Below are positions 6,952 through 61,233 of a stretch of 64,000 bases of DNA, in pieces; position 1 is the stretch's first letter; every line of letters starts with the position of its first letter. The position numbers and the translations under genes are program-made. The notes beneath the pieces are model-generated. The model ran no database searches, was not told the origin of the DNA, and worked only from the letters and a program-made list of their open reading frames with translations. This stretch comes from Hoylesella nanceiensis DSM 19126 = JCM 15639 (lineage in GTDB: Bacteria; Bacteroidota; Bacteroidia; Bacteroidales; Bacteroidaceae), in NCBI RefSeq assembly GCF_000379965.1, contig NZ_KB904327.1, positions 707,405-771,404 on the forward strand, written 5' to 3'.

Positions 6952-7061
6952 AATAATATCCCATCCTAATAGCAATGTTTATTCGCCTCATTTTCTATGC
7001 TTTTAACATCTAAACACATCGCTATTGTAATGTAATAGCAATACTTTTAAAACAATACTAT
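6952..7061. repeat. 22-bp periodic palindromic array, copy 1 (five units)
   Basis: Five consecutive 22-base units (starts at 6952, 6974, 6996, 7018 and 7040) share the framework of a left half like AATGCTTTTA and a right half like TAATAGC, with a few variable bases between. The fourth unit has GCTATT and AATAGC facing each other, so it can form a hairpin. Units are diverged but the period is exact. The array lies in the 711-base gap between the Cys-rich small gene and the fimbrillin-like gene; the rest of that gap holds only the promoter described separately and no recognisable gene. Confidence 0.7.
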
Positions 7062-7276
7062 ATAACAATCAGTAAATAAATGCTTTAACATCAAAAGATA
7101 CAGGCACAAAGAATAAGCCCTGAATCGATAAGAGACAGAGAAAAATGAGATAAAATCAAAGTGAGAGTAGGATTTTACTAAGATATCAACTACATTAAAC
7201 TAAAAGATTATGAAGTTGATTTCATCATTCTAAACAAACACCTTTTGAGAAGAAAAAGAATAAAAAAGGATTCTGA

Positions 7277-7519
7277 TTAATAGCACTTTTTGCAAGGACG
7301 TCGTCCTTTTGCACGTGCTTGCGCCTCTGTTAACGACACGATTGAACCCGAACAACGACTTAAGCCACTACAATTGGTGGTGGCATGAAATACTTGCGCT
7401 TTGGGACCTGTACATATATAAACCTTTGTTGCTTGCGCTTTGATGACAGGTTTATGGTGAACTTGAAACCAAGGAGTAGTTAACAATAGAGCCAATGGAA
7501 TACTTTTGAGTAGTAGCAT
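7277..7519 (-). CDS. Small exported Cys-rich protein, function unknown
   Basis: An 80-residue protein when started at the ATG at 7519. This start gives a clean hydrophobic signal segment (MLLLKSIPLALLL), whereas the longer frame to 7588 needs a GTG start and adds an unconvincing extension. The mature part carries VYICTGPKA, then TTNCSGLSRCSG, and ends PCKKCY, giving four or five cysteines arranged like a small metal-binding or disulfide-bonded module. Similar short exported proteins with a VYxCxGxxAxxYHxxxxC pattern are common in Bacteroidales and their role is unknown to me. It follows the pseudouridine synthase gene by 76 bases on the same strand and may be co-transcribed. Confidence 0.7.
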   Translation of the reverse strand: MLLLKSIPLALLLTTPWFQVHHKPVIKAQATKVYICTGPKAQVFHATTNCSGLSRCSGSIVSLTEAQARAKGRRPCKKCY

Positions 7520-7595
7520 AGTTTTATTTGATAAATAAGTAATTATAAAAGCAAAGGTATGTGTTAGTGTTTTATACTGAAGGGGCACCGCCCTT

Positions 7596-8264
7596 TTATG
7601 GTGCTATCGCCCTCCATAGGTTATCATCAGGCAAAGGAGCCTCTACAACGATAGGTTCTTTAGATACGGGATGAATAAATTCTATTCGACGTGCTAATAG
7701 AGAAATACTTGCATCTGGATTGCTTCTAGGTGCACCATACTTAAGATCTCCTTTAATAACACAGCCCATATGCGCCAATTGGCAACGTATTTGATGATGT
7801 CTTCCTGTGAGAAGAGCCACCTCTAACAAGGCATATCGCTCACTTTTAGAAATAAGTTGGTAGTTAAGAATAGCCTTCTTACTATTAGGTTTCTCTTTAT
7901 CGTAAGCGTAACTCTTGTTTTGTTTCTCGTTACGAACTAACCAATTAACAAGCGTTCCTTGCTCTTCTTTAGGCATATTGGCTGTTATTGCCCAATAGGT
8001 TTTATGCACTTCGCCCTTACTAAACATCGTATTAAGACGTGACAAGGCTTTTGAGGTTTTAGCAAAGACCACTATTCCAGCTACAGGACGATCTAAACGA
8101 TGCACCACTCCTACAAAAACATTGCCTGGCTTAGCATACTTTTCTTTAATATAAGCCTTAACAATATCGCTTAAGGGGGTATCACCTGTCTTGTCGCCTT
8201 GCACAATTTCACCACTAGATTTGTGCACAATAATAATGTGATTGTCTTCGTAAAGAACCTGCAT
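7596..8264 (-). CDS. RluA-family pseudouridine synthase
   Basis: A 222-residue protein starting at the ATG at 8264 (MQVLYEDNHIIIVHKSSG); the upstream extension to 8291 requires a TTG and is not needed. It carries the RluA signature VVHRLDRPVAG, where the Asp is the catalytic nucleophile that isomerises uridine in rRNA or tRNA, and later LLTGRHHQIRCQLAHMG, the family's C-terminal motif. No S4 domain is present, as in the short single-domain RluA members. The RNA target cannot be told from the sequence. Its gene lies just upstream of the small Cys-rich gene. Confidence 0.9.
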   Translation of the reverse strand: MQVLYEDNHIIIVHKSSGEIVQGDKTGDTPLSDIVKAYIKEKYAKPGNVFVGVVHRLDRPVAGIVVFAKTSKALSRLNTMFSKGEVHKTYWAITANMPKEEQGTLVNWLVRNEKQNKSYAYDKEKPNSKKAILNYQLISKSERYALLEVALLTGRHHQIRCQLAHMGCVIKGDLKYGAPRSNPDASISLLARRIEFIHPVSKEPIVVEAPLPDDNLWRAIAP

Positions 8265-8364
8265 AAAATGCTTCTTTGAGTTAAATAACAACGTATTAAG
8301 ATACTACTCCATTCCACTTGCAAGTAAAAAGGAGCATTATTGATTTGAAAGAATGGTATAAAAA

Positions 8365-8441
8365 CAAAGTGAATTATTAACGCTTACTATCTTAGTTGCT
8401 CCCGAGAGGAGTAGATTTGCAAGTATTAAGAATTCACTTTG
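8365..8441 (-). terminator. Long hairpin terminator after fabG
   Basis: Outer arms CAAAGTGAATT (8365-8375) and AATTCACTTTG (8431-8441) are perfect complements, with further inner pairing including CTCC/GGAG. On the minus strand it begins 13 bases after the fabG stop and is followed by TTTTTAT. Confidence 0.75.
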
Positions 8442-8454
8442 CTGATTATTATCA

Positions 8455-9201
8455 TTACATATTCATGCCACCATCAACCTGAATCACTTGTCCGCTGATG
8501 TAACTAGACATGTCTGAAGCCAAGAATAGAGCACAAGAAGCGATATCTTCTACTGTACCACCACGGCGAAGAGGTATCTTGCTTGTCCATTCTTTACGTA
8601 CTTCGTCGCTCAATGCTTGTGTCATTGCAGTGTCGATGAAGCCTGGAGCAATTGCATTTGCACGCACTCCCTTAGGTCCCATCTCTTGAGCTACACTCTT
8701 AGCAAGTGCAATCATAGCTGCTTTTGATGCTGCATAGTTTGCTTGTCCTGCATTACCATGCACACCAACAACGCTTGCCATGTTGATGATTGAACCACCA
8801 CGTTGACGCATCATGATTGGAGTACAAGCATGAATGAAGTTAAATGCACTCTTAAGATTCACGCCAATAACGGCATCCCATTGTGCTTCTGTCATACGAA
8901 GCATTAATCCGTCTTTTGTGATTCCTGCATTATTAACCAAAATATCGATTGAACCAAATTCTTCTTTCACTTGATTTACAACCTGAGCAGATTGTTCAAA
9001 ATCGGCAGCATTGCTAGCATAACCCTTAGCTTTTACGCCTAATGCAAGAAGTTCTTCTTCGGTTTGTTTACCATTTTCATCTATTACAAGGTCTGTAAAC
9101 GCTACATTTGCGCCTTCTGCGGCAAACTTTAAAGCTATTGCCTTACCAATACCACGAGCTGCTCCTGTTACTAAAGCAGTCTTACCTGTTAATAATCCCA
9201 T
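8455..9201 (-). CDS. fabG: 3-oxoacyl-[acyl-carrier-protein] reductase
   Basis: A 248-residue short-chain dehydrogenase that uses NADPH to reduce 3-oxoacyl-ACP in fatty acid elongation. It shows the Rossmann motif TGAARGIG near residue 12, the NNAG motif near residue 90, the catalytic Ser-Tyr-Lys set (NMASVVG, then ANYAASKAAM) and the closing SSYISGQVIQVDGGMNM typical of FabG. The ATG start and length match the family. It lies downstream of a TetR-type regulator on the same strand, about 80 bases apart, and has a strong terminator of its own, so the two probably form a short operon. Confidence 0.93.
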   Translation of the reverse strand: MGLLTGKTALVTGAARGIGKAIALKFAAEGANVAFTDLVIDENGKQTEEELLALGVKAKGYASNAADFEQSAQVVNQVKEEFGSIDILVNNAGITKDGLMLRMTEAQWDAVIGVNLKSAFNFIHACTPIMMRQRGGSIINMASVVGVHGNAGQANYAASKAAMIALAKSVAQEMGPKGVRANAIAPGFIDTAMTQALSDEVRKEWTSKIPLRRGGTVEDIASCALFLASDMSSYISGQVIQVDGGMNM

Positions 9202-9282
9202 GTTTTGATGTTGTTTATTATTAATACTATTATATGTTCTTTATTAAAGAATCAATATTGTTTATTTATTAATTAGCTTGAT

Positions 9283-9879
9283 TTAAAGAATTAATCCCGA
9301 CTTACCCAAGGCTCCATACACTACCTTAGCAACCAAAGGCTTACTGCTTTCGGCTGTTAATCCATGACCTAATCGCCCGTAAATGAAGGGCACCTCAAGT
9401 CCTTTAATACAATAATGAGTGATGTCTGCCACAAGTTCTACGTTTTCAATATCGAACTCTCCTTCGGCTTTTCCTTCGGCATAAACCTTTCGAAATAATT
9501 CTATTTCGTCTTCATCAAATTTCTTTCGAACCTTTTCTACCATCCAAATATTTCGAAAGAACTCTGCTCTAAGATTTCCATTGCGCACAACTGTCTCTTT
9601 AATCATACTTAAGTGTGTGTAGATAAGCTCAATAATCTTATCTTGAGGACGCATTTTCATTGCTGCCACCTCATCTAATCGGTCAGATAAACGCTCTAAC
9701 TCTGATTCGATAACAGCGTAGTAAACATCGTCTTTCTTACTAAAATAAGTGTAAAGAGTGCGTCGCCCTTTTCCAGAAGCAACTGCAATATCATTCATTG
9801 TGGTGTTGGCTATACCGTTTTTAGCAAACAGCTGTCGGGCAACATCAACCAATTTTTGCCGTGTTTTAGATATTGACAT
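9283..9879 (-). CDS. TetR/AcrR-family transcriptional regulator
   Basis: A 198-residue protein from the ATG at 9879 (MSISKTRQKLVDVARQLF); the longer frame to 9912 needs GTG. The N-terminal TetR DNA-binding domain (about residues 5-55) has the usual NGIANTTMNDIAVASG and TLYTYFSKKDDVY segments. The C-terminal ligand-binding part is variable. The gene precedes fabG on the same strand, so it may control its own operon and hence fatty acid synthesis, in the manner of FabR/FadR-like TetR proteins; this is inference from position only. Confidence 0.88.
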   Translation of the reverse strand: MSISKTRQKLVDVARQLFAKNGIANTTMNDIAVASGKGRRTLYTYFSKKDDVYYAVIESELERLSDRLDEVAAMKMRPQDKIIELIYTHLSMIKETVVRNGNLRAEFFRNIWMVEKVRKKFDEDEIELFRKVYAEGKAEGEFDIENVELVADITHYCIKGLEVPFIYGRLGHGLTAESSKPLVAKVVYGALGKSGLIL

Positions 9880-9928
9880 AATACTTTTCTTAATGTTTAA
9901 TATTGCTTGCACAATGTTCTCTTATGTG

Positions 9929-9965
9929 CAAAAGTATAATAATTATTTGAACCCCGCAACATGTT
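9929..9965 (-). promoter_or_regulatory. Promoter of the tetR-fabG unit with overlapping palindrome
   Basis: On the minus strand GTTG (9957-9960) is followed after exactly 20 bases by TACTTTTG (9929-9936). The perfect palindrome AACATGTT (9958-9965) overlaps the upstream element and is a candidate operator for the TetR protein. Start of transcription would fall near 9922, about 43 bases before the ATG. Confidence 0.55.
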
Positions 9966-10043
9966 TGGGTGTTTTTATTGTAAAGTAACAATTCGAAAAC
10001 TCCCTTACGAATAAGCATTAAGAATGAAAAGGAGACAGAAAAA

Positions 10044-10077
10044 GGCAGACTACAACTTTTAAAAGCTATAATCTGCC
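10044..10077 (-). terminator. Strong hairpin terminator downstream of galK
   Basis: GGCAGA and TCTGCC close a nearly continuous 17-bp stem (with G-U pairs) whose centre is CTTTTAAAAG. On the minus strand it is followed by TTTTT. It lies about 180 bases after the galK stop; the 22-bp array and a second hairpin lie between. Confidence 0.7.
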
Positions 10078-10102
10078 ATTGGTATAAATGCTTTATTATT
10101 TG

Positions 10103-10138
10103 AAAATGACAATTACACTAATGTATAATTGCCATTTT
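10103..10138 (-). terminator. Second hairpin in the galK 3' region
   Basis: Arms AAAATGACAATTA (10103-10115) and TAATTGCCATTTT (10126-10138) pair at 12 of 13 positions around a 10-base loop. The minus-strand reading ends in CATTTTC, so it may act as a weak terminator or as an RNA-protecting 3' hairpin. Confidence 0.45.
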
Positions 10139-10175
10139 CTTTGTCTATAACCTCGATATATAATTTTGTTATAAT

Positions 10176-10255
10176 GATGCTTTTATATCGCAATAGTAAT
10201 GCTTTTAGGGCATAACAGCAATACTTTTACATCGTAATTACTACTCTTTTATATC
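10176..10255. repeat. 22-bp periodic palindromic array, copy 2
   Basis: Units start at 10176, 10198, 10220 and 10242 with framework AATGCTTTTA ... TAAxAGC. Three are clear; the fourth is partial and abuts the galK stop codon at 10260. The array therefore forms the first part of the galK 3' region. The gap from 9880 to 10259 holds this array, two hairpins and the tetR promoter and no gene. Confidence 0.75.
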
Positions 10256-10259
10256 TTGA

Positions 10260-11420
10260 TTATGATATTTTTCTTGAGCCTTCGCTAATTACAACGTCGT
10301 AAACACCAGGTGTTTTACCATATTTTGCTTCATATTTTGCTTTAGCATCTGCAATAAACTTGTCGTAAAGTTCTTCCTTTACAAGGTTGATTGTGCAGCC
10401 TCCGAAGCCTCCACCCATGATTCTACTACCTGTAACTCCGTTCTCTTTAGCCACTTCATTGAGGTAATCTAGCTCTTCACAAGATACTTCATATTCTTTG
10501 CTTAGGCCATGATGAGTTTCATACATCTTAGCTCCTACTGTCTCATAGTCACCTTTTTCAAGTGCATCGCATACTGCAAGAACTCTGTCTTTCTCACCTA
10601 ATACGAAATGAGCACGTTTATAATCTTCTTCAGAAACATTAGCTTTCACTGATTCAAGCATATCCCAATCAGCGTCACGAAGGGTTTCAATCACCTTATC
10701 AGCATATTTCTTTTGAAGCTCTGCCACTACATTTTCACAGCTTTGACGACGCTTGTTGTATGCAGAAGAAGCCAACTCGTGTTTTACTTTTGAATCAACA
10801 AGTACTAAACGGTAGCCCTTTGGATCGAATGGGAAATATTCAAATTCTCTTGAACGACAATCTAGTCGCATCAATTTTCCTTCTTTTCCAAATACACTTG
10901 CAAACTGATCCATGATTCCGCACTTAACACCTACATAATTATGTTCGGTTGCTTGACCTGCCAAAACCATATCCCACTTAGCAACTTTGTTATCTCCGAA
11001 AAGATCATTCAAAGCAAAAGCGAAACAACTTTCAAGTGCTGCAGATGATGACATACCTGCTCCTAAGGGCACATCTCCAGAGAATGCTGTGTTGAAACCT
11101 TTTACATCAACACCTAGTTTGCGCATTTCTTGAACAATACCATAGATATATTTTGCCCATGAAGTATGTGGACCTTCAGGATCTGTTACTTTAAATTCAA
11201 CACGGTCTTTAAGGTCTATTGAGTAACACATTACCGTATCAGTGCCATTGGGGCGCACTTCTGCCATAATACCTTTATCTACTGCACCTGGAAAAACAAA
11301 TCCTCCGTTATAATCGGTGTGCTCTCCAATAAGGTTAATACGACCTGGTGAAGCATAAATATTACCTGTCTTTCCATCAAAATGTTTGATGAATCTACTT
11401 CTTACGTGTTCGATGTCCAT
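10260..11420 (-). CDS. galK: Galactokinase
   Basis: A 386-residue GHMP-family kinase that phosphorylates galactose to galactose 1-phosphate with ATP, the first committed step of the Leloir pathway. The ATG at 11420 is chosen because it gives the normal start MDIEHVRSRFIKHF; the frame to 11477 depends on a TTG inside the intergenic sequence. The GalK signature GRINLIGEHTDYNGG lies near residues 27-41, the ATP-binding loop PLGAGMSSSAALE follows, and the third GHMP motif is SRIMGGGFGGCTIN. It is the third gene of galM-gluP-galK, 75 bases after gluP. Confidence 0.96.
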   Translation of the reverse strand: MDIEHVRSRFIKHFDGKTGNIYASPGRINLIGEHTDYNGGFVFPGAVDKGIMAEVRPNGTDTVMCYSIDLKDRVEFKVTDPEGPHTSWAKYIYGIVQEMRKLGVDVKGFNTAFSGDVPLGAGMSSSAALESCFAFALNDLFGDNKVAKWDMVLAGQATEHNYVGVKCGIMDQFASVFGKEGKLMRLDCRSREFEYFPFDPKGYRLVLVDSKVKHELASSAYNKRRQSCENVVAELQKKYADKVIETLRDADWDMLESVKANVSEEDYKRAHFVLGEKDRVLAVCDALEKGDYETVGAKMYETHHGLSKEYEVSCEELDYLNEVAKENGVTGSRIMGGGFGGCTINLVKEELYDKFIADAKAKYEAKYGKTPGVYDVVISEGSRKIS

Positions 11421-11495
11421 ACTTACTTGTATTAAAGGGGTTAACGATAATAGTGAACCTTGCCCACAAAAAGGCAAGGTTCATTATATTTTTAA

Positions 11496-12809
11496 TTAAA
11501 CTGGAATATCTTTATTGATGTTCTTGCTTCCGATGATTGCATAGAAGAAGAGGTAAGCTAAACCTGCTAGAGGTACGATATATGAAATCAAATAGCCTGA
11601 TTTATCTGCGATGAAAGATTGGATAAGTGGCAAAACTCCTCCACCTACTACCATCATCATGAAGATACCTGATGCAGCTGCTGTATATTTACCTAATCCT
11701 TCTGTTGCAAGGTTGAAGATTGAAGACCACATTACTGATGTACACAAACCGCAAAGAACAAGTAGAAGTGCAGCAACAGGAACGGTTGTCATTTGGAATG
11801 ACTCACCTGTAAACACTGGCATAAGCATTGTTGTAGACTTACCTAAAACGATTGCAGCAACTACAAGAATCATACCTACGCATGATGTTGTAACCATCAT
11901 AGTCTTACTTGATACAAGGTTTGCAATGAAACCTGCTGTAAAACGACCTACAAGCATCAAGAACCAGTATGTAGCAGCAACGGTTCCTGCGATAGAAGCT
12001 GCGTTACCTAAGATACCACCACCCTTTTCTGTTGTATCAGAAAGGTAGAAAATAAGTGTTCCTGGGATACCAACTTCGATACCAACATATAGGAAAATAC
12101 CAATTGCACCAAGTACAAAGTGGCGGAATGACCATGGACTTGCCTCGAATACTGTTGATTCTGTTACAGAACCACCTTCTGGATCTGAGATAGGAATGAA
12201 CAAAAGAACAACGAAAGCCAATGCGAATACAGCCATTGCGATGTATAAAACCATGTTAACGTCTGCTATTTGTGTGCTTGCAGTTACTGTACCAATCAAT
12301 GCTCCTACGAAGATTGGAGTCAAAGTACCTGTCAAAGAGTTAAGTGTACCACCGATAAGGTTAAGTTGGTTACCACGGTTTCCACCACCACCGAGTAGGT
12401 TAAGCATTGGGTTTACAACAGTATTAAGGATACATACAGAGAAACCTGCGATGAATGCACCTAATAGATAAATTGTGAAACCTGTGTAGTTAGAAGATGA
12501 ACCGATAGCTCCTGAAAGGAATTGTACAAACACTCCCACGAAACCAAAAGCGATACCAACTAATGCAGTCTTCTTATAACCAATCTTTGTTAATAGTTTT
12601 CCAGCAGGAATACCCATAAAAAGATAAGCCAAGAAGTTCATAGCATTACCTAACATACCTACGACGTTAGCACTTTCTCCTTGGAAAGCACCTTTCCAAA
12701 TTACACCAATTGGTGCTGCTAAGTTTGTCACAAACGAAATCATTGCATACAAAAACATCATTGTGATAATAGCAATGATGCTTCCTTGTTGCTTCTTTAC
12801 TTTTTCCAT
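11496..12809 (-). CDS. gluP: Glucose/galactose MFS transporter (FucP/GluP type)
   Basis: A 437-residue inner-membrane protein with about 12 hydrophobic segments, of the FucP/GluP group of the major facilitator superfamily, which import sugars with protons or sodium. The segment GNAMNFLAYLFMGIPAGKLL is typical of the first half and MWSSIFNLATEGLGKYT of the second half of the GluP group. Position between galM and galK makes galactose or glucose the likely substrate. ATG start, no unusual features. Confidence 0.9.
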   Translation of the reverse strand: MEKVKKQQGSIIAIITMMFLYAMISFVTNLAAPIGVIWKGAFQGESANVVGMLGNAMNFLAYLFMGIPAGKLLTKIGYKKTALVGIAFGFVGVFVQFLSGAIGSSSNYTGFTIYLLGAFIAGFSVCILNTVVNPMLNLLGGGGNRGNQLNLIGGTLNSLTGTLTPIFVGALIGTVTASTQIADVNMVLYIAMAVFALAFVVLLFIPISDPEGGSVTESTVFEASPWSFRHFVLGAIGIFLYVGIEVGIPGTLIFYLSDTTEKGGGILGNAASIAGTVAATYWFLMLVGRFTAGFIANLVSSKTMMVTTSCVGMILVVAAIVLGKSTTMLMPVFTGESFQMTTVPVAALLLVLCGLCTSVMWSSIFNLATEGLGKYTAAASGIFMMMVVGGGVLPLIQSFIADKSGYLISYIVPLAGLAYLFFYAIIGSKNINKDIPV

Positions 12810-12968
12810 TTTCTAGTTATTTATTTATTATTTTTTATTTCTTAGTTGCTTATTCTACATTATTTATAAGTCGCAAAACACTTTATAGCAGTTGTTTCTG
12901 CCAAAAGACTAAGTTCTGCAACATTATATTATAATGAGAACTTTCGATAAAAAGCTTTATATCTCCGT

Positions 12969-14060: not shown

Positions 14061-14084
14061 CAATTGTTTAGCTTAACATTTATG

Positions 14085-14116
14085 CAAAGTAAACGAAAAA
14101 AAACGAATAGAACAAA
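14085..14116 (-). promoter_or_regulatory. Promoter of the galactose operon
   Basis: On the minus strand TTTG (14113-14116) is followed after 20 bases by TTACTTTG (14085-14092), one mismatch from TAnnTTTG. It lies about 25 bases upstream of the galM ATG, giving a short leader. Confidence 0.6.
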
Positions 14117-15991: not shown

Positions 15992-16083
15992 ATACTTTCT
16001 AGAGAACAAAAGGATTGATTTTACAATTCAAAAGTAATGCTATTACCTTGCAAAAGCATTGCCATTGCAGGGTAATAGCATTG
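15992..16083. repeat. 22-bp periodic palindromic array, copy 3
   Basis: Units start at 15992, 16014, 16036 and 16058, followed by a partial ATTG. The best units read AATGCTATTAC ... CAAAAGC and ATTGCCATTGC ... GTAATAGC. The array begins about 40 bases after the folC stop. The gap 15639-16123 also contains a perfect 9-bp inverted repeat TAAAGAATA/TATTCTTTA at 15804-15830 without a T-run, and no gene. Confidence 0.78.
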
Positions 16084-16123
16084 AGTTGAATGAGTAAATA
16101 AAACGCAAGTAAAAATGAATTGC

Positions 16124-17425
16124 TTATTGCTTTAACCATAGTTGAGATATTAATACCTCGGAAATGATGTAATTACTGCCACCAATAAACAAACAATCAT
16201 CGTTCTTCATAGTAGAGAGTGCTGCGCAACAAGCCTCCTCCACCGTAGGATAAGAAGTGCCTTTAAGTCCTCTCAATTTTGCTTTTTGCTCCACAACATG
16301 TTCTGATAATGCCCGTTTACAAGAGGCTTTAGTAAAATAGTAGACGGCTTTTTCTGGTAAAAGTTGTATAACAGCATCGATGTCTTTATCGTCCACCATT
16401 CCAAAAACGATGTGTAGTTGACTACAATCTAATTCGTTTAGCTGTTTAGAAAGAGAGTTCCAAGCTGCCTCATTGTGACCAGTATCACAGAGAATGTAAG
16501 GAGTTTGCGATAGAGTTTGCCAACGCCCTGCAAGTCCCGTCAATGTTTCGACATGCTTGAATCCCTCTTTCACATGATCAGTAGCTATGTCGAATCCAAG
16601 TAATTGCAACTCTTTCACCGCTGTTAAGATGGTGTTTGAGTTCTTCACCTGATAGCTTCCTTTTAGCTGTCCTTCAACTATTCCAAAGTGTTTTGTTGTA
16701 TATTCCCATGCTTTATCTGCATTTTGAACATAAGAAGTCACTTCGGGTTGATCTTCCGCAAGGATCAATTTGGCATTTTCCTCTAACGCTTTCGCCTTAA
16801 ATACAGGTAATGTTTCGTCGTTATACTCCCCTATCACAACGGGTGTTTGATGTTTTATCACTCCAGCTTTCTCACTTGCTATCTTCGATAAAGAATCTCC
16901 AAGGAGCGCAACATGATCGAGTCCAATATTGGTTATCACCGACAACACGGGCGAAATGATATTGGTGCAGTCGAGTCTTCCACCCAATCCCACTTCAATA
17001 ACAGCCACGTCCACCTCGCTATCGGCAAAATATTTAAAGGCAAGAGCTGTTGTTAATTCAAAAAAAGAAGGGTGAAGAGGTTCGAAAAAAGAAGCATTTT
17101 GATGTACAAAATCCACTACATAATCTTCTGAAATACATTCGCCATTCACTCTTATACGCTCTTTAAAATCAACAAGATGCGGCGAAGTGTAGAGCCCAAC
17201 ACGATATCCTGCGCTCTGTAAGATAGCAGCTAAGGTATGAGAACACGAGCCTTTGCCATTCGTTCCCGCAACATGTATGGTTCGATAGTTACGGTGCGGG
17301 TGATTGAAATGCTTATCGAGCGACTCCGAATTAAATAATCCTGGCTTATAAGCACTGTTTCCTACCTTCTCGAAAACAGGCATACTGTTAAACAAATATT
17401 CAATTGTTTCTTGATATGTTCTCAT
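16124..17425 (-). CDS. folC: Folylpolyglutamate synthase / dihydrofolate synthase
   Basis: A 433-residue Mur-ligase-family enzyme that adds glutamate to dihydropteroate and folates using ATP, in the cytoplasm. The ATP-binding loop HVAGTNGKGSCSH lies near residue 55, followed by SPHLVDFKERIRVNG and VGLGGRLDCTN, the usual family motifs, and the Mur-ligase C-terminal domain. The ATG at 17425 is preferred to the TTG at 17437. It follows dnaJ on the same strand with about 150 bases between, which contain a long inverted repeat. Confidence 0.95.
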   Translation of the reverse strand: MRTYQETIEYLFNSMPVFEKVGNSAYKPGLFNSESLDKHFNHPHRNYRTIHVAGTNGKGSCSHTLAAILQSAGYRVGLYTSPHLVDFKERIRVNGECISEDYVVDFVHQNASFFEPLHPSFFELTTALAFKYFADSEVDVAVIEVGLGGRLDCTNIISPVLSVITNIGLDHVALLGDSLSKIASEKAGVIKHQTPVVIGEYNDETLPVFKAKALEENAKLILAEDQPEVTSYVQNADKAWEYTTKHFGIVEGQLKGSYQVKNSNTILTAVKELQLLGFDIATDHVKEGFKHVETLTGLAGRWQTLSQTPYILCDTGHNEAAWNSLSKQLNELDCSQLHIVFGMVDDKDIDAVIQLLPEKAVYYFTKASCKRALSEHVVEQKAKLRGLKGTSYPTVEEACCAALSTMKNDDCLFIGGSNYIISEVLISQLWLKQ

Positions 17426-17473
17426 TTTTTCGTGCAAAATAATGGGGTATTAGGAATGTCTATTTATCAAAAT

Positions 17474-32281: not shown

Positions 32282-32391
32282 AATGTATTGCGTTTACAAA
32301 GGAATTGTGAGGTGATTATAAAAGGAATGCTTTTAGGGTGTAAAAGGATTGATATTACACTCTAAAAGCATTGTAATTATAGCTCAATAGC
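32282..32391. repeat. 22-bp periodic palindromic array, copy 4, running into a gene
   Basis: Five units start at 32282, 32304, 32326, 32348 and 32370, followed by ATTG at 32392. The clearest read AATGCTTTTA ... TAAAAGG and ATTGATATTAC ... TAAAAGC. The last unit overlaps the 3' end of the sulfatase maturase gene: its last four residues and stop codon (AIEL, stop at 32377) are written in repeat sequence. Confidence 0.8.
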
Positions 32392-33606
32392 ATTGTTTTT
32401 AGCCCACTCCATCACATTACTTGGTGGGCGACCTGCTTCATATTCGGCTTTCATAAAGTCCATATAAGGTGCAACATGCGCAAAGAAACGCTTATAGCCC
32501 TTACACAAATAGTTGAGACCTGGCATGCCATAGCAATCGGTTATGAATCTATTTTTAGGACATTCGCCATTACATGCAAACATATAGGGGCACTCTTTGC
32601 ATTGTTTAGGCAACAAATTGTGTTTGTTTTTACCAAAGGTTAGTTGCTGAGGACTATACATCATTTCTGTAAGCGTTTTGTCTTTGATGTTTCCTAACTT
32701 ATATTCTGGAAACACAAAGTGGTCGCATGCATACACATCTCCATTGTGTTCCATCACTCCTGCGTGTCCACATGTGCGTGCAAGGGTGCATATACTTGGA
32801 GTAACTCCTACCCAATTGGCTAACGTTGCATCGAAAAGTTGAACATAATAGTCGCCTACATCTTCTTTAATCCACTCATCAAAAATAGCGCAAAGGAAGG
32901 CTCCCCACTGCTCGGCACTAACCGAATAAGACGTAACCCGTAGATCTTTATCTTTTAAAGAGGCAAGATGTCTGCCATCTGTGTGTTGTATTTGGCGTTC
33001 AACAATTGGAGTGAACTGAATGAAATGACAACCAATGTTTTTAAAGAAGTTGTAGAATTCGATGGGATGATCGGCATTTTGATTGTTAACAACAGCCATT
33101 GCATTCCATTCTACACCATGTTTGTTAAGCAATTCTATTCCTCTCATCACCTCATCAAAGGTATCCTTGCCACGAGGTGTGGTGCGATAGAGGTTGTGCA
33201 TGGCTGCTGTTCCATCAATAGAAAGCCCAATTAAAAAGTCATTATCTTTAAAGAAACGACACCAGTCATCAGTTATAAGGGTTCCATTGGTTTGTAAGCT
33301 ATTTTGAATATCATATCCTTTGCCATACTTTTGTTGTAACTTCAGTGCCTTTTCGTAGAATGATATAGGACGAAGAAGGGGTTCACCGCCATGCCAAGTG
33401 AAGGACACTTGGGGCTGAGTTTGCGACAAGAGATATTGTTGAATAAACTTTTCGAGGAGCGTTTCGTCCATCCACATACTCTTATTACTTGCATATAAGA
33501 ACTGCTTTTCTAAGTAATAACAATATTTACACGATAAATTACAGCTACTGCCAACAGGCTTTAGCATCACATAAAGTGGTTTGGCGAAGGGTGCGTATGT
33601 ATTCAA
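32377..33606 (-). CDS. Anaerobic sulfatase-maturating enzyme (radical SAM/SPASM)
   Basis: A 409-residue radical SAM enzyme that converts the active-site Ser or Cys of sulfatases to formylglycine without oxygen. The SAM-cluster motif CNLSCKYCYYLEK lies near residue 21, TWHGGEPLL follows, and the C-terminal SPASM part has the Cys-rich CKECPYMFACNGECPKN and YLCKGY. The sequence TYAPFAKPLYVMLKPVG before the cluster matches the N terminus of characterised Bacteroides maturases, which supports the TTG at 33606 as start; the first ATG (33567) would cut this part. It lies downstream of a sulfatase gene whose motif is of the Ser type, a natural substrate. The 3' end runs into a 22-bp array. Confidence 0.93.
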   Translation of the reverse strand: MNTYAPFAKPLYVMLKPVGSSCNLSCKYCYYLEKQFLYASNKSMWMDETLLEKFIQQYLLSQTQPQVSFTWHGGEPLLRPISFYEKALKLQQKYGKGYDIQNSLQTNGTLITDDWCRFFKDNDFLIGLSIDGTAAMHNLYRTTPRGKDTFDEVMRGIELLNKHGVEWNAMAVVNNQNADHPIEFYNFFKNIGCHFIQFTPIVERQIQHTDGRHLASLKDKDLRVTSYSVSAEQWGAFLCAIFDEWIKEDVGDYYVQLFDATLANWVGVTPSICTLARTCGHAGVMEHNGDVYACDHFVFPEYKLGNIKDKTLTEMMYSPQQLTFGKNKHNLLPKQCKECPYMFACNGECPKNRFITDCYGMPGLNYLCKGYKRFFAHVAPYMDFMKAEYEAGRPPSNVMEWAKNNAIEL

Positions 33607-47821: not shown

Positions 47822-47990
47822 GAACACGTCAAATTATTTTCATTTTGTTGGCACATTTCTCTATTCTAATCCACGCTCTAAGCCTATTTTCTTATATAAT
47901 ATCGATGGGATAAAGGAATTACTCCATTCTTCACAAAGCCCATTAATATTCAAAGTGTTATATCTTTTATAATACTTTCATTTCAAATTC

Positions 47991-48060
47991 AATGCTTTTG
48001 ATATTGAATATCATTGACTTTGCACCGCAATTACATCGTTTTTAGAGTGTAATAACATTG
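47991..48060. repeat. 22-bp periodic palindromic array, copy 5
   Basis: Units start at 47991, 48013 and 48035, followed by ATTG at 48057. They read AATGCTTTTG ... GAATATC, ATTGACTTTGC ... GCAATTAC and ATCGTTTTTAG ... GTAATAAC. This copy lies about 330 bases upstream of the TIG lipoprotein gene, in the middle of a long gap. Confidence 0.72.
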
Positions 48061-48310
48061 TGTTTATTCTTATATAATATTACCAATGTAACTATACTTG
48101 ATTTTATTCTAAAGCCAAAAGATAAAATACCTAAGAATTCATACATCTCATTCTTTAATGATTAACACATAAGTATTCTTTATTGGATTTGTGTTTCTTA
48201 CACCTTAATATTATATGGTGTTTTAAAAACTTTTTCCATTAAATGTAAATATGAGCCATTTCTGATATAAATTGATTCATTTTTATTATTCTTAAGTTCT
48301 TATTTCTTCT

Positions 48311-55073: not shown

Positions 55074-55097
55074 AAACTCTTTAAATTTTAAATCAAT

Positions 55098-56120: not shown

Positions 56121-56178
56121 AAGATTATGTAAGTCTTTTACGAACTAAACAATTCTGAAAAAGCATTTCACACAAGAT

Positions 56179-56225
56179 ATTAGGTCATAGTAACGAGTTG
56201 ATTACTATGGCCTAATTCTTTTTAT
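56179..56225 (+). terminator. Terminator of the TIG-SusCD operon
   Basis: ATTAGGTCATAGTAA (56179-56193) and TTACTATGGCCTAAT (56202-56216) pair at 14 of 15 positions around an 8-base loop, followed by TCTTTTTAT. Confidence 0.88.
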
Positions 56226-56466
56226 AAAGGCTATAACACATTTTTTTTCACACTTGTATACTTATAAATATACTCAAGCTGCCTTCTGAGAATTCATCGA
56301 ACCCCTTCTCGTCTATAATATTTGAGACATGATCATTTATTGTTTCCTTTTATTTGTGATTTATTTTCTCTCTTAAGTAACACAAGAAAAACTTCTTTAA
56401 AGGCGAGCTAAGTTAGATTTTCACAAGGAACAGCGACCGAAATTTTCATTCATTTTATTCTAAGAA

Positions 56467-56499
56467 TTGGTTCATTTCAAATGAAAACAATTAACTTTG
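56467..56499 (+). promoter_or_regulatory. Promoter of the RelA/SpoT-type hydrolase gene
   Basis: TTGG (56467-56470) is followed after 21 bases by TAACTTTG (56492-56499). The spacer contains the near-palindrome TTCATTTCAAATGAA (arms of seven bases), a possible operator. The gene starts 75 bases further on. The rest of the 454-base gap 56121-56574 holds the operon terminator and nothing else recognised. Confidence 0.5.
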
Positions 56500-56574
56500 T
56501 AAACAAACAGCTAAACAACTACTGAAAGAAAACGAAAACAAGACACAAAAATCATTTTATTTTAGAATTATCTT

Positions 56575-57024
56575 ATGGCACAAACAGAAATACTCTCAAA
56601 CAATATGCTTCTAAAAAAAGCATTAGACATCGCTACCAATGCTCATAAAGAGCAGACTGACAAAGCTGGAAAACCTTATATTTTGCACCCCATTAGGGTT
56701 TCTGAAAGATGTAACACAGTCGAAGAAAAAATTGTTGCACTACTTCATGACGTTATTGAAGACACAGAAATAACACCAACAATTTTGCTTTCTGAAGGAT
56801 TTCCTGAGCATATTGTCGAAGCCATTCTTTCAGTTACCAAGCAAGAAAATGAGCATTATGATGACTTTGTTAAAAGATGCAGCGCAAATAGCATCGGAAA
56901 GGCTGTAAAAATACATGATTTGGAAGACAATATGGACATCACTCGTCTTAAAGAACTTTCCGAAAATGATTTAGAGCGACTAAATAAATACCTCAAAGCT
57001 TATTATTATCTCAAAGGAGAATAG
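56575..57024 (+). CDS. Small RelA/SpoT-type HD hydrolase
   Basis: A 149-residue protein consisting of just one HD-type hydrolase domain. It shows the metal-binding pattern of ppGpp hydrolases: the first His in YILHPIRVSE, the HD pair in VALLHDVIEDTE and the later Asp in VKIHDLEDNMDITR. No synthetase or regulatory domain is present, so it fits the small alarmone hydrolase or related guanosine polyphosphate pyrophosphohydrolase group. It might lower ppGpp or related nucleotides. It stands as the first gene of an accessory stretch with immunity-like genes. Confidence 0.82.
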   Translation: MAQTEILSNNMLLKKALDIATNAHKEQTDKAGKPYILHPIRVSERCNTVEEKIVALLHDVIEDTEITPTILLSEGFPEHIVEAILSVTKQENEHYDDFVKRCSANSIGKAVKIHDLEDNMDITRLKELSENDLERLNKYLKAYYYLKGE

Positions 57025-57597
57025 TAGGCTTTGTGCAGTTGATGAACGCTAATGCCTTTCTTCGTTTCGTCTGAAATAGCATAATTAGCCTTGCTTTATT
57101 GGCGCTCTATTCCGTTGAATGATAGACTTTCTTCTACCTCTATCATATATTTCTATAAGTAGCGAGATATGTCTTACATTCTAACTAAAAATTGTACGCC
57201 TGCATCTCATTATCATTAAATCCCCTGATGTTATAATAAAGTTGAGAAGTAATTCTACTAAGCGATTGTAACAAACAACTTTAGGAAGCTGATAGCAAAT
57301 ATGCTTGCATGGTTTTTCGAAATAGAAAACCTTAAAATAGCGAAAAACAGAATAGTGAAATTACGCTAATATTTTCTCTTATCAGTAGTTTTTAAGTCTA
57401 TACTTTAATCTCATTACATTAAAAACTTACAGAAATCATCTTCCATTCCAAATATTTCTGTAACTTTGTTCTCGGTGATTATCACGTTTTTTGATTGTAA
57501 TTATTTGTATATTAACCCCTTAAAGATTCATTCAAATTCATGCTTCACCAAATTTACAATCACTTATAATTCATTGAACTCACGCTGAATAGAAAAA
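57025..57597. other. Intergenic region with a -7 element
   Basis: The 573 bases show no convincing gene on either strand. TAACTTTG at 57471-57478 could be the -7 element for the Imm26-like gene (leader about 110 bases). A small inverted repeat GTTTTTCG/CGAAAAAC lies around 57310-57350. Confidence 0.45.
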
Positions 57598-58764
57598 ATG
57601 ATGGAGACAGAAAACAGAAACCACAATATAATAAAGATCATATTGCGAAATGAGGATAGAAAATATCTAGGACTTACGCCAATAGAAGACCATTGGGAAA
57701 GAATGGATATAAAACATATTACCTTATTTTTTGATGGAGATATTATTCGAAAAAAGATAACGCATACTGAATTTGAATCACAGCATTTTTTGTATTTGGA
57801 AGAGGATGTGTATGTAGAAACAGCAGAAAACAGAACAATAGTTTTACCAAAGACATCAAAAGGTAAGCCAAAGAAACTAAATTATACGGCAACTACGATG
57901 TTTACACGCATTGGTATGTACTTTATGTACAACGATGGCTATATAGTAATTGCAAACTCAACGACGCAAAAGACTTTTTATTGGACAACTGTTGAGGGCA
58001 AAGAATACAAAAAGCTTTTTGACAAATGGTTTGAAACGTGGAAAAAAGAAACCACTGAAGAAGATTTAAGAGAGCTAGAAACTTTTAAAAACGAAAAGAG
58101 AAAAAAGCAAAAATATAAGGAAGGTGACATTTTTGCCTTTAAAATTGGTAGACGAAACTATGGCTTTGGAAAAATTATTATTGATGTTACAAAAAGAAGA
58201 AAGTCGGAAGAATTTCATAAAAACAAGAACTATGGCTTAGCACATCTAATGGGCCCTGCTTTAATTGTGAAGGTTTATCACAAATTGTCTGATACAAAGG
58301 ACATCGACATTGAGGAATTAAAACACTGTTCTTCGTTCCCTGGACAAGCAGTAATGGATAATCATATTTATTATAATGAAAATCCCATTATTGGAAATTT
58401 ACCTGTGTCTAATGCCGACATGAACGATGCAAATCTATCGATTAGTAAGAGTATTAGCTATGATGATTGGAATATAGCTTATCTTCAATATGGCTTGATC
58501 TATAAAGAAATACCCCTTGAAGAATATATAAAGCATGAAGAAGAACATTGGCATGCTTATAGAAATGAGGGAATAGGATTTGGCTTGTTCATAGGTGGGC
58601 TAGAGGAATGTATAAAAGAAAAATCTAATAAAAAGTTCTTTGAAAGATATACCAATGACTTAAGAGCACCTCAACATGCCAAAGATAGAGAAATCATATT
58701 TAAACTATTTGGATTAGATGCCAATTTAGACTATCAAGGAAACTTGGAGTTGTCTAAGCAATAA
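57598..58764 (+). CDS. Imm26-like protein (putative immunity protein)
   Basis: A 388-residue cytoplasmic protein, without signal peptide or membrane segment. The central part (about residues 160-300) has QKYKEGDIFAFKIGRRNYGFGKI and ends with a GLIYKEIPLEEYI segment, the pattern of the Imm26 family of predicted toxin-immunity proteins. The N-terminal 150 residues and the C-terminal part are not recognised. Two ATG codons in a row are possible starts. No toxin gene lies next to it. Function as immunity protein is inferred from the family. Confidence 0.6.
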   Translation: MMETENRNHNIIKIILRNEDRKYLGLTPIEDHWERMDIKHITLFFDGDIIRKKITHTEFESQHFLYLEEDVYVETAENRTIVLPKTSKGKPKKLNYTATTMFTRIGMYFMYNDGYIVIANSTTQKTFYWTTVEGKEYKKLFDKWFETWKKETTEEDLRELETFKNEKRKKQKYKEGDIFAFKIGRRNYGFGKIIIDVTKRRKSEEFHKNKNYGLAHLMGPALIVKVYHKLSDTKDIDIEELKHCSSFPGQAVMDNHIYYNENPIIGNLPVSNADMNDANLSISKSISYDDWNIAYLQYGLIYKEIPLEEYIKHEEEHWHAYRNEGIGFGLFIGGLEECIKEKSNKKFFERYTNDLRAPQHAKDREIIFKLFGLDANLDYQGNLELSKQ

Positions 58765-59052
58765 ATGATATTTTGAGAGAATCAGAACTATTGAGGCTAA
58801 TCCCTACTTCAATTTACTCTTCTCTCTACAAACTCCTGAGTTCTCTTGTCTTTTTAATTGACCCCATTCTGTATATTCTAATATGAAAGAAAGAAAAAAA
58901 TAAATAATGAAATTGCTCGTTGATATACTGACTTGTATAGAAGTTAATACACGACATTTAACAATGTTCTAGACATTTTTCTTGCTACATTGATAACAGC
59001 ATGTGAAGCATAAAAGAGAACATATTATCGATATTGAATCAAATAACAATTA

Positions 59053-59529
59053 ATGAATAAATTAAAAGAAAAAATTATGAACACATTAGATCACAAGTAT
59101 TTTGGCAAATTATGTTTCGACAAGGCAAACGATACAGGAATCATTTGGACTGGCCAAGTAAATGACATAAACGTAAAAATGTGGTATGACGAAGATATGG
59201 AAGTAAAAAGAGAGGAATTGGACAAATGTGCTCTCTTTTTAGAAAACTTCAAAGACAACATTAAAAGAGCTACCGAAATACTGATTGAGACCTTAAAAGA
59301 GGATAGAGAATATATGGACTATCATCTCGAAGCATGCAAAGAAGCAAACTTACCCAATGACGTTGTTGAGTTTGTTTTGAAAATGACGGTGACTGCCATT
59401 AATCTGTGGATAGGTGATAGCGAGCTAATAACGATAGATTTCATGATTCTACCCGAAGAAAGTGATCAAATCTTATGCGTAAAATTTAATGAAAAAGGAG
59501 AAGTGGATGCTGTTGATTGGGAGAGCTAG
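59053..59529 (+). CDS. DUF2004-type small protein
   Basis: A 158-residue acidic cytoplasmic protein (start at 59053; an ATG at 59077 giving MNTLDHKYFGKL is equally possible and is the more usual N terminus for the type). The pattern YFGKLCFD, then WTGQVNDINVKMWYD and the C-terminal DFMILPEESDQILCVKFN resembles DUF2004 proteins, which often lie in toxin-immunity clusters. The function is unknown. It is preceded by a 288-base gap in which no feature was seen. Confidence 0.6.
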   Translation: MNKLKEKIMNTLDHKYFGKLCFDKANDTGIIWTGQVNDINVKMWYDEDMEVKREELDKCALFLENFKDNIKRATEILIETLKEDREYMDYHLEACKEANLPNDVVEFVLKMTVTAINLWIGDSELITIDFMILPEESDQILCVKFNEKGEVDAVDWES

Positions 59530-59615
59530 GATATTGTTATCTACAGACTTTTCTGTATACGTCCCTAGTCTTTCATTTATGTAGAAACAATATTAAAGTA
59601 TTTCAGGTAATTAAA

Positions 59616-60455
59616 ATGATGAAAGAGAAACTGAATGCCTTTGTGGCTGAATTTAAACAAGAAGCACTACTTGATGCTATTCGAATAAAGTTATCGTCCA
59701 CTCCAGCTCTAGAGATTACACAAAGCAAAGTTGGGGGACTTTTCTATTTGCCTAAATCGGCAACAATACCAACTAATAGCAAAGGTGAACAACTAATGTT
59801 CTTGGCACAGATAAACTGTGAAGAATTGCCCGAGAACTCCATATATCCTCCAAAAGGAATTATGCAGTTTTGGATTTTTGGTGGAGATTATGATATGGGG
59901 AATAACTATGACAACCCATGTTCTGACGAAAACAAACGAGTGATTTATTATCCTACGATTGAAGAACATTATAATTTGGAAGAGTTAACCACTATGTATA
60001 AGCCTAAAGAAAATGAAGACGGTGAATTAATTACTCCAATCTGTACTGACGAGCCTTTATCTATGTCGTTTCAACTTGAAAAACAATGGCGGTTGGTTTC
60101 AGATTTTCGTTTTGAAGAGGCATTTATAGAAAAGTGGAATGCACATTTCCCTGATAAAAAGATAGAAGAGTTCTGGCAGTTAGATGAAGATCTTTCTGAA
60201 ATTGTCTATGAAATGCTGGATATCAAAGAATATTCTCAAATTGGAGGCTATGGATATTTTACACAAACCGACCCACGTATGTACGAGTCTTTATCAGATT
60301 ATACTGAGATATTATTTCAACTGGATTCGTACGATGAAGGTGACGAGTACAAAGTTTTATGGGGTGATTGTGGTGTAGGAAGCTTCTTCGCAACTAAAGA
60401 GCAACTAAAGAACCTCGACTTTGCGAATTGTCTATATAATTGGGATTGTTGCTAG
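59616..60455 (+). CDS. DUF1963 (YwqG-like) protein
   Basis: A 279-residue cytoplasmic protein when started at the ATG at 59616 (MMKEKLNAFVAEF, next ATG at 59619). The longer frame from 59517 relies on TTG and overlaps the previous gene. It shows the DUF1963/YwqG pattern: SKVGGLFYLPKSATIPTN near residue 30, LMFLAQINCEELP, GIMQFWIFG and the C-terminal QIGGYGYFTQTDPR and VLWGDCGVGSFFA. The molecular function of the family is unknown; it is common among small-gene clusters with immunity proteins. Confidence 0.85.
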   Translation: MMKEKLNAFVAEFKQEALLDAIRIKLSSTPALEITQSKVGGLFYLPKSATIPTNSKGEQLMFLAQINCEELPENSIYPPKGIMQFWIFGGDYDMGNNYDNPCSDENKRVIYYPTIEEHYNLEELTTMYKPKENEDGELITPICTDEPLSMSFQLEKQWRLVSDFRFEEAFIEKWNAHFPDKKIEEFWQLDEDLSEIVYEMLDIKEYSQIGGYGYFTQTDPRMYESLSDYTEILFQLDSYDEGDEYKVLWGDCGVGSFFATKEQLKNLDFANCLYNWDCC

Positions 60456-60459
60456 CATA

Positions 60460-60494
60460 TTTCTCTCGTCGATCACACATATTGGCGAGAGAAA
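60460..60494. repeat. Hairpin after the DUF1963 gene
   Basis: TTTCTCTCG and CGAGAGAAA form a perfect 9-bp stem with a 17-base loop just after the DUF1963 stop. No T-run follows, so it is terminator-like at best. Confidence 0.45.
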
Positions 60495-60598
60495 AACTCT
60501 TAAATACATCATAAAAAAGGCCACCATTGATAGTGAAACAATCTTCAAACTCATAAAAAAGATTTGATTGAACCACTTATTTTCTTATTAGAACAAAG

Positions 60599-61012
60599 AT
60601 GAAAGTTATTAGAGATTTTGGCGAATATTTCAAGTATTCGCTTCACGATGCACGCATCAATAGAATTGAATATAAGCAAGGAAATATAATATTGCATTTT
60701 AATTATATTTTTTCGTATGATGAAAATATAGAGCGAACCCATAAAGCACAGATTATTTTTGAACAGGTTGATATTGATGATATTCGTATACTTGTATTTA
60801 ACAATAGGTGGTTAGATGATTTTCAAGGTCAATGTATCGATTTAGAAACATATCAAAGTAAATATAAGAATAGCGAATTTGAAGTTATTGACGAGACTTA
60901 TAACTGGGGAAAAGCCATGTTTCAAGGGTGGCTAAGGACTGAAGATCTACCAGTTCACTGCATTATGGATATACGTTTCAATGGTAAGATGATATATGTA
61001 ATTGAGGATTAA
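60599..61012 (+). CDS. Small acidic protein, unknown, possibly immunity-like
   Basis: A 137-residue cytoplasmic protein starting MKVIRDFGEYF. It has YSLHDARINRIEYKQGNIILHF, a pattern (L-H-D-A/S-R-I followed by beta strands) seen in several small immunity-type families, and an Asp/Glu-rich centre with NNRWLDDFQGQ. I do not recognise the family with confidence. It is the fourth plus-strand gene of this small-gene stretch and ends before array copy 6. Confidence 0.6.
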   Translation: MKVIRDFGEYFKYSLHDARINRIEYKQGNIILHFNYIFSYDENIERTHKAQIIFEQVDIDDIRILVFNNRWLDDFQGQCIDLETYQSKYKNSEFEVIDETYNWGKAMFQGWLRTEDLPVHCIMDIRFNGKMIYVIED

Positions 61013-61123
61013 GGAATGTTCTATGACCAAATTATCATTAGGAATGTTTCAAATTTACTTATCTGCGCACCAATAATAAAACCCTCGGTATCACTACTTT
61101 TCTATCCTACTCCATTCAATTTG

Positions 61124-61233
61124 TATGTTATTCAGTTGTAAAAGCAGTGCTTTTACTCTCTAATTCCTATCCTTTTACGAGCTAAAAGCAATAATATTAC
61201 ATCAGCATAACAACTTATTACTATATTAAAAGA
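61124..61233. repeat. 22-bp periodic palindromic array, copy 6 (five units)
   Basis: Units start at 61124, 61146, 61168, 61190 and 61212. They read, among others, AGTGCTTTTAC ... TAATTCC, TATCCTTTTAC ... TAAAAGC and AATAATATTAC ... CATAAC. The array is in the 365-base gap between two convergent genes, so it is in the 3' flank of both. Confidence 0.78.

Follow-up and report, generated by a model that had tools for sequence, protein, structure and literature searches.

Dispersed arrays of four imperfect palindromes on a 22-bp lattice in Prevotella, a candidate platform for DNA-binding protein dimers

Results and Discussion

In the window, the 64,000-nucleotide stretch of Hoylesella nanceiensis DSM 19126 (the home genome) that we analyzed, we recovered all six arrays with a 22-bp period that had been claimed for it (Table 1), and we lean towards reading them as the core of a non-coding element, dispersed in Prevotella genomes, which acts at the DNA level as a platform for about four putative protein dimers. 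Each unit consists of an imperfect palindrome of 17 bp, YAAAAGC-NNN-GCTTTTR, and a variable spacer of 5 bp. Three to five units per array had been counted originally; the arrays stand, but their size has to be corrected to a block of four 17-bp palindromes, which spans 83 bp and has a palindrome at both ends. When a 22-column profile was built from five arrays, the held-out sixth reached 35 to 58 bits over three units in each case, and with the profile of all arrays the best other place reached 12.7 bits.

Table 1: Arrays found in the window, with scores, half-sites and neighbouring genes.
Array	Position	Strand	Score	Half-sites	Remarks	Context
A1	6967..7049	.	41.9	8	degenerate; four imperfect palindromes of 17 bp, period 22 bp	
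A2	10169..10251	.	45.5	7, detected at 10179-10251	first half-site degenerate; four-unit frame extended by eye	directly 3' of galactokinase gene (10260-11477, minus strand)
A3	16007..16089	.	53.4	7, detected at 16007-16079	last half-site degenerate; four-unit frame extended by eye	on 3' side of folC (16124-17437, minus strand)
A4	32319..32401	.	60.1	8		shares 25 bp with 3' end of sulfatase-maturase gene (32377-33606, minus strand)
A5	47984..48066	.	40.9	8		divergent gap
A6	61117..61199	.	42.1	8		convergent gap

When the spacing was left free, a search arrived at the lattice unaided: 158 of 186 steps in one direction had a half-site distance of 12 and 188 of 212 steps in the other a distance of 10, which together give the period of 22. 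The same periodicity was found in a model-free count of recurring 5-mers in gaps of at least 130 bp, which peaks at lags 22 (robust z 18.5) and 44 (11.5), the next value being 3.0. From 105 two-unit seeds of the home genome (both strands included) a third unit followed in 99, a fourth in 93 and a fifth in 2, and reversed controls gave no seeds. Letters 2 and 3 of the half-site are A in 97–98%, a preference that the detection itself favours, and the spacer letters are near random. That the 12/10 lattice and the count of four persist despite such random-looking spacers supports the proposed selection for spacing, as would be expected if an oligomeric protein occupied one helix face. Exactly one canonical half is present in 209 of 318 palindromes, versus 160.9 expected (sd 8.7, permutation within arrays), and perfect 17-bp palindromes are below expectation in all five species (observed versus expected, sd in brackets: 7 v 19.8 (3.5); 12 v 18.2 (3.4); 7 v 14.1 (2.8); 0 v 16.2 (3.5); 12 v 27.1 (3.5)). 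Lambda operators pair a consensus half with a non-consensus half.

The 464 kb of the home genome that were sampled contain 58 arrays, which extrapolates to about 330 genome-wide, and reversed or shuffled controls gave zero arrays at the same threshold. In agreement with the predicted excess, a genome scan with a three-half-site pattern (at most 3 mismatches) yielded 426 partly overlapping matches and the backwards pattern 0. Arrays occupy 51 of 140 gaps of at least 130 bp and 0 of 44 gaps of 60–129 bp. Their description as intergenic is right for most of them but not absolute, as in 7 of 58 more than 20 bases lie inside a crude ORF call. The location of five of the six window arrays in 3' flanks turned out to reflect a mere tilt: among gaps of at least 100 bp, 13 of 27 convergent ones have an array, as do 29 of the 109 between tandem genes and 7 of the 24 between divergent genes, and tandem gaps show no significant stop-side preference, with 17 arrays closer to the stop and 12 closer to the start codon (p = 0.46).

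Among the 66 home-genome arrays that were compared, 0 of 2145 pairs have 12 of 15 spacer letters in common and the mean spacer identity is 0.380, versus 0.375 (sd 0.002) after shuffling. With spacers randomised in this way, strong arrays persist, 53 scoring at least 40 and only 2 between 25 and 40, which suggests that the arrays have diverged but were kept, i.e. maintained. Weaker chains outnumber those of the reversed sequence, with 53 against 20 at scores 12–14 and 11 against 3 at scores 16–25, and may be decayed copies. This excess lends the originally named alternative of a decaying repeat at best weak support, against which stands the near-empty range between strong arrays and background. 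A non-functional minisatellite whose register is preserved merely by its origin is very improbable: it would account for the large differences between units of one array, for the very weak chains and for the similar adjacent spacers in the relative SUG860 (12 of 47 identical vs 1.8 expected), but neither for the count of four nor for half-sites conserved beside randomised spacers, the few changes in spacing and the nearly vacant scores from 25 to 40.

Related arrays, with species-specific letters, were found in four other Prevotella with a GC content of 36 to 53%, and in each of the other 295 genomes of the phylum sample at most one match was obtained. In three Prevotella the blocks mostly end at four units, namely a cattle MAG (47 seeds, unit 4 in 45, unit 5 in 3), SUG860 (41 seeds, unit 4 in 39, unit 5 in 8) and brunnea (27 seeds, unit 4 in 21, unit 5 in 2), and in P. 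illustrans at four or five, with a fifth unit in 28 of 67 seeds. The units within an array have a coherent polarity in SUG860 only. Viral contigs gave 0 exact matches to a two-unit pattern, and a match to Acinetobacter plasmids was discarded as low-complexity AT-rich DNA without an array.

Some species have in front of the array a leader with the palindromic motif TTGAWWWTCA, the centre of which is 33 bp or three turns away from the first dyad. With at least 8 of 10 letters this motif is present at -30 in 11 of 13 arrays of brunnea and in 19 of 23 of the cattle MAG, in all orientations relative to genes. The leader is absent from SUG860, and in the home genome no more than a trace is seen, with 1 match near 55 arrays vs 2.4 expected and, displaced outwards by one unit, a positive leader score in 4 of 66 arrays. 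The IHF/HU consensus WATCAANNNNTTR occurs at -25 with at least 8 of 9 letters in 7 of 22 views (two per array) in brunnea, 6 of 44 in the cattle MAG and 4 of 156 in the home genome.

Since the centres of the usually four dyads are 22 bp or two helical turns apart, four dimers of one putative DNA-binding protein would fit on one helix face and could touch each other, and in some species the IHF/HU-like leader might bend the DNA onto the array. We infer that a protein binds the arrays, with four dimers cooperating, and that the complex would serve chromosome structure or 3'-end insulation and not only the spread of the element itself; the arrays would have spread by copying and would now be maintained in the home genome. 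Points against a platform of this kind are the lack of the leader in SUG860 and its near-absence in the home genome, the frequent fifth unit in P. illustrans, the excess of weak chains, the possible strong folding of several arrays as RNA (see below) and their placement. For 99 pairs of orthologs we detected no conservation of array position from one species to another, neither upstream (2 of 11, p 0.35) nor downstream (3 of 27, p 0.39), which is weak for an essential site. Conserved gene neighbours were also not evident among 20 families, the lowest uncorrected p of 0.025 coming from one gene fetched three times. A more far-reaching idea, which we regard as possible but doubtful, is that some Prevotella chromosomes have about every 6 to 13 kb a standardised four-dimer platform, consisting of four imperfect dyads at 22-bp pitch and sometimes a bending leader, as a chromosome-organising or boundary system absent from other sampled Bacteroidota, the putative protein co-evolving with the species-specific half-site.

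The variable positions would suit a mobile element that is selfish and non-autonomous. A transposase or recombinase from another locus would bind its four sites, as happens at multi-site transposon ends, and the array would be retained for its role in mobility. Copies of whole modules point in the same direction, as in the cattle MAG a 141-bp module of leader and array recurs with sharp edges and 93% identity (82 of 83 letters being common to two arrays), and in P. illustrans an element of about 395 bp with the array inside is present in 8 copies, counting the query, one of them truncated at a contig end. The unit slots of the cattle arrays also retain their identity, slot 1 having TAT in 18 of 20 and slot 4 ATA in 15 of 20. 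Nevertheless we consider such an element rather unlikely, as terminal inverted repeats or target duplications were not clear by eye in 8 illustrans and 4 cattle copies, no transposase or integrase family is among the 25 commonest of 177 families (105 array-flanking genes, three species), and recent copies are absent among the 66 home-genome arrays. The illustrans element has TTTGTA-like letters at both ends.

RNA hairpin strings, the other function that had been proposed, were not supported as a common one. No overall in-register excess of pairing was seen inside the 17-mer, between the two sides of the 5-bp spacer or over two units, nor when the whole array was treated as a mirror and compared with shifted controls; single columns deviate in both directions (z from -4.4 to 4.8) and off-register one-base shifts reach z up to 2.8. 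Folding of 12 arrays, with the frames of A2 and A3 offset by 10 bases, gave 7 at z <= -2.85 and 5 above -1.5; two of the six window arrays fold strongly and the other four no better than shuffles. The array family is not a typical RNA hairpin family. Transcribed hairpins that act as bidirectional terminators or stabilise mRNA 3' ends are improbable, even if the seven strong folds and the richness of convergent gaps would agree with them, because register-summed pairing is at or below the permuted expectation or not significantly above it save for the one-base shifts, perfect palindromes are below expectation, five arrays do not fold strongly, arrays also lie in divergent gaps, and two relatives have by eye separate hairpins between galK and the array. 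In the window and six further loci (seven sources) Rfam at gathering scores detected only rRNA, tRNA and tmRNA and no family at the arrays. Intrinsic terminators were rejected for these hairpins and the divergent gaps as well, and for the AT-rich half-sites.

Imperfect palindromes or sites of about 22 bp that lie about two turns apart and are bound by oligomers are known from lambda OL/OR, ARG boxes, plasmid iterons and MuA/TnsB sites. Tandem operator arrays are found at one or few loci, in contrast to the hundreds chromosome-wide here, and to our knowledge it would be unusual for a bacterial genome to hold hundreds of near-standardised sites with so sharp a count of four and so strict a helical pitch. 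REP, BIME and RIB elements also comprise hundreds of intergenic imperfect palindromes, often composite and some with an IHF site (PMC2817692, PMC3733652, PMC12306157). The arrays differ from REP/BIME in their exact period and in that pairing is not conserved by compensatory changes, and the consensus has no terminal GTAG or CGTC tag, so that membership was rejected. A RAYT as mover was rejected too, as PF01797 is absent from the six genomes that exceed 200 pattern matches (G000, G012, G269, G270, G271, G273); of the two genomes with 130–150 matches, G225 contains one and in G276 the only match stays below the cut-off. BrickBuilt, a MITE minisatellite of Porphyromonas gingivalis, is another case of short tandem units in a Bacteroidales genome, with 19 copies tabled, IS5-like terminal repeats and 23-nt units between leader and tail (PMC4596501); by this description, its period of 23 differs from the 22 of the arrays.

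BrickBuilt and PINSR surfaced in the one library searched, the accessible portions of which describe no 22-bp palindromic lattice; the original statement that no such family is described has to be qualified because of PINSR, which is probably related. In the excerpted text of its report PINSR is an intergenic, non-coding repeat of the P. intermedia/nigrescens group, found in Prevotella only, with a 188-bp consensus, 177 copies in one strain and 184 in another, and with neither terminal inverted repeats nor a known function; by PCR four related species were positive and no tested species of other clades (PMC4755523). The home arrays are likewise intergenic, non-coding and of high copy number, and the 22-bp lattice and palindromic units do not appear in that excerpt (PMC4755523). 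In P. nigrescens we found a repeat of about 190 bp at 11 places, which bears imperfect palindromes on a 22-bp lattice and is at best 79.7% identical over 197 bp to a repeat of the relative G233. By length, species and place, this repeat of about 190–197 bp is probably PINSR, and the arrays seem to extend this family, published for one Prevotella group. Free-spacing scans were barely above the reversed control in P. nigrescens (9 vs 7 arrays) and in the last G233 scan (15 vs 13), so the link by the lattice rests on BLAST, a separate scan for this link (15 vs 2) and alignments. The home genome retains only the 83-bp core with different half-site and centre letters and has only the lattice and half-site type in common with the P. 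nigrescens-type repeat; with one home array and its flanks as query no full-length similarity was seen, P. nigrescens not being among the matches listed. If a protein fills the arrays, a large nucleoprotein system has gone unnoticed in Prevotella, and PINSR, so far a marker repeat, would become one example of an element more widely spread in Prevotella, the binding code of which could be tested.

The density of the sampled arrays has no clear relation to origin or terminus. Two regions of the home genome, C2 145–255 kb and C5 196–284 kb, are by eye rich in consensus-like arrays among the matches listed.

Results and Discussion

The arrays, rows of imperfect palindromes with a 22-bp period, are a genuine and strikingly regular Prevotella element. 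All six arrays described in the window by the original prediction were borne out, as a profile of three units reaches 38 to 58 bits at these sites against a maximum of 12.7 in the rest of the window. The predicted period of 22 also stands, and the unit itself could be recast: using a floating-spacing search, half-sites (single arms) were found at a distance of 12 in 158/186 steps and of 10 in 188/212 steps, therefore the natural unit is a 17-bp imperfect palindrome plus five free bases. In the home genome of Hoylesella nanceiensis DSM 19126 its consensus is YAAAAGC-AWT-GCTTTTR, with AA at half-site positions 2–3 kept in 97–98%. The centre reads AWT in this genome, TWA in P. brunnea and TAT/ATA in Cattle_2_mag_37 (cattle MAG), and the array-bearing species compared range in GC from 0.36 to 0.53. 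In another genome (G010, contig C3 337418-337478) the lattice takes yet another species-specific form, with half-sites CCTTTTA/TAAAAGG and a TWA centre.

A 464-kb sample of the 2.65-Mb home genome (the window, contig C1 707405-771404, and 20 evenly spaced 20-kb stretches) contained 58 arrays scoring at least 22 vs 0 in the same DNA reversed or block-shuffled, the excess for which a genome scan had been proposed; by extrapolation the whole genome has about 330. In the score histogram, 53 arrays reach at least 40 and 2 fall between 25 and 40. Weaker chains also exceed the reversed control (11 vs 3 at scores 16–25, 18 vs 13 at 14–16 and 53 vs 20 at 12–14) and may be remnants or single sites. By eye, and among the matches listed, C2 145-255 kb and C5 196-284 kb seem rich in near-consensus arrays.

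Three to five units per array had been proposed, and the usual stop is four. Starting from seeds of two units without a preceding unit (both strands counted, most arrays twice), 105 seeds in the home genome continue into a third unit in 99, a fourth in 93 and a fifth in 2 cases. The corresponding numbers are 47, 45 and 3 for 47 seeds in the cattle MAG, 41, 39 and 8 for 41 in the MAG SUG860 and 23, 21 and 2 for 27 in P. brunnea, while P. illustrans ends at four or five (67 seeds; 63, 49, 28 and 1 for the next); reversed controls gave no seeds. Arrays of eight half-sites make up 29/58 in the home genome, 20/24 in the cattle MAG, 15/21 in SUG860, 7/13 in P. brunnea and 9/30 in P. illustrans, the loci of P. 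brunnea, SUG860 and the cattle MAG having been chosen because they match the two-unit pattern; reversed controls yielded one array each for the cattle MAG and P. brunnea and none for SUG860 and P. illustrans.

To our reading, which we hold with slightly better than even confidence, the arrays are best explained as a putative DNA platform for about four dimers. An action mainly at the RNA level is not supported. Variable letters show no overall compensation in local hairpins, where several columns pair below expectation and a few above, and there is no excess for a mirror fold of the whole array (z of -2.1 in the home genome, -3.8 in SUG860, -4.6 in the cattle MAG and -1.9 in both P. illustrans and P. 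brunnea). Perfect palindromes are below expectation in 5/5 species, by at least 2.5 sd in four and 1.8 sd in P. illustrans, and exactly one canonical half is present in 209/318 palindromes of the home genome vs 160.9 ± 8.7 expected (79 arrays, some from loci fetched for strong matches). RNA folding of 12 arrays gave z of -2.85 or lower in 7 and above -1.5 in 5; it is the symmetry of the half-sites that lets arrays fold, but this symmetry is not maintained to perfection. The main rival, that the arrays are a platform for a transposase, appears less likely to us.

Regarding their age, among the spacers of 66 arrays of the home genome 0/2145 pairs agree at 12/15 letters, and the mean spacer identity is 0.380 vs 0.375 after shuffling (sd 0.002), while half-sites retain AA at positions 2–3, which suggests that these arrays are old and have been maintained. 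Copying, by which they would have spread, is still visible in relatives: in the cattle MAG a 141-bp module recurs with 93% identity, and P. illustrans has eight copies of a non-coding element of about 395 bp, which encloses the array and whose TTTACAAAA end is sharp.

Copies of the approximately 395-bp element in P. illustrans
Locus	Coordinates
L052	7462-7856
L058	7327-7722
L198	
L204	
L206	
L208	
L210	
L212	

A leader outside the array, with TTGAWWWTCA at -30, accompanies 19/23 arrays of the cattle MAG and 11/13 of P. brunnea; 33 bp separate its centre from the first dyad, and in part it is similar to an IHF site. It is absent in SUG860 and at most a trace in the home genome, and in a stretch from oral taxon 299 a leader-like word stands at -30 beside 1/3 strong arrays. 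The end units of arrays are mirror images of each other, with TAT in 18/20 first and ATA in 15/20 last slots (unit positions) of the cattle MAG and TTA in 7/8 first and TAA in 7/8 last slots of P. brunnea.

Arrays occupy 51/140 gaps of at least 130 bp in the home genome vs 0/44 gaps of 60–129 bp, and their predicted intergenic position mostly holds, except that 7/58 share more than 20 bases with an ORF as crudely called. Among gaps of at least 100 bp, 13/27 convergent, 29/109 tandem and 7/24 divergent ones carry an array. The proposed preference for 3' flanks is reduced to a mild tendency: in tandem gaps 44/65 arrays of five species (summed by hand) lie closer to the stop codon (17/29 in the home genome, 9/13 in P. 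illustrans, 9/12 in SUG860, 8/9 in the cattle MAG and 1/2 in P. brunnea). No gene family clearly recurs beside arrays, leader direction is unrelated to gene direction, and the suggested comparison of positions between species revealed no detectable sharing. An array occupies the 3' flank of the galactokinase gene galK (window 10260-11477; loci L164 and L168) in both the home genome and SUG860, and in P. illustrans a piece of two palindromes is found there; in SUG860 and P. illustrans separate hairpins lie between galK and the array or piece.

The pattern was present in 13/60 genomes of the genus sample (home genome counted), with more than 200 matches in three, and in 15/16 further genomes (21 to 406 matches each), 10 of the 16 having been chosen for the pattern or via an exact two-unit scan. 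In the family sample 22/151 genomes had a match, at most three, which is about the reversed-control level, except for the home genome and G064 (21), and 3/295 other genomes of the phylum sample had one each with two mismatches allowed. Two exact units were found at 60 loci in contigs of 84,980 species, every title being Prevotella or Prevotellaceae, and viral contigs gave no matches. As the variants of G233, another genome, and P. nigrescens differ in letters, the pattern underestimates the family.

The original prediction knew of no described family, and one lineage form has probably been published. Two strains of P. intermedia are reported to carry 177 and 184 copies of PINSR, an intergenic repeat of 188 bp, with about three quarters of the sites common to both; PINSR also occurs in P. 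nigrescens, P. falsenii and P. disiens and is described as lacking terminal repeats or known function (PMC4755523). A repeat of about 190 bp in G233 matches P. nigrescens at 11 places (79.7% over 197 bp), and its core is the array lattice with half-sites such as CAAAACC/GGTTTTG, the controls of one of the scans being weak. Judged from sequence, this repeat is presumably PINSR, which would then belong to one family with the present arrays. That the two strains have so many PINSR sites in common, as published, fits copies that are old and have been maintained. BrickBuilt is set apart by its period, its ends and its copy number (PMC4596501). Membership in REP/BIME was rejected, as the six most array-rich genomes encode no REP-associated Y1 transposase (RAYT), the tag is absent and pairing is not kept. 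Two Prevotella replicons, NC_022111.1 (1.77 Mb) and NZ_CP082843.1 (0.57 Mb), are recorded as plasmids; with housekeeping genes on it, rpsA and pyrB among them, the latter has the look of a second chromosome.
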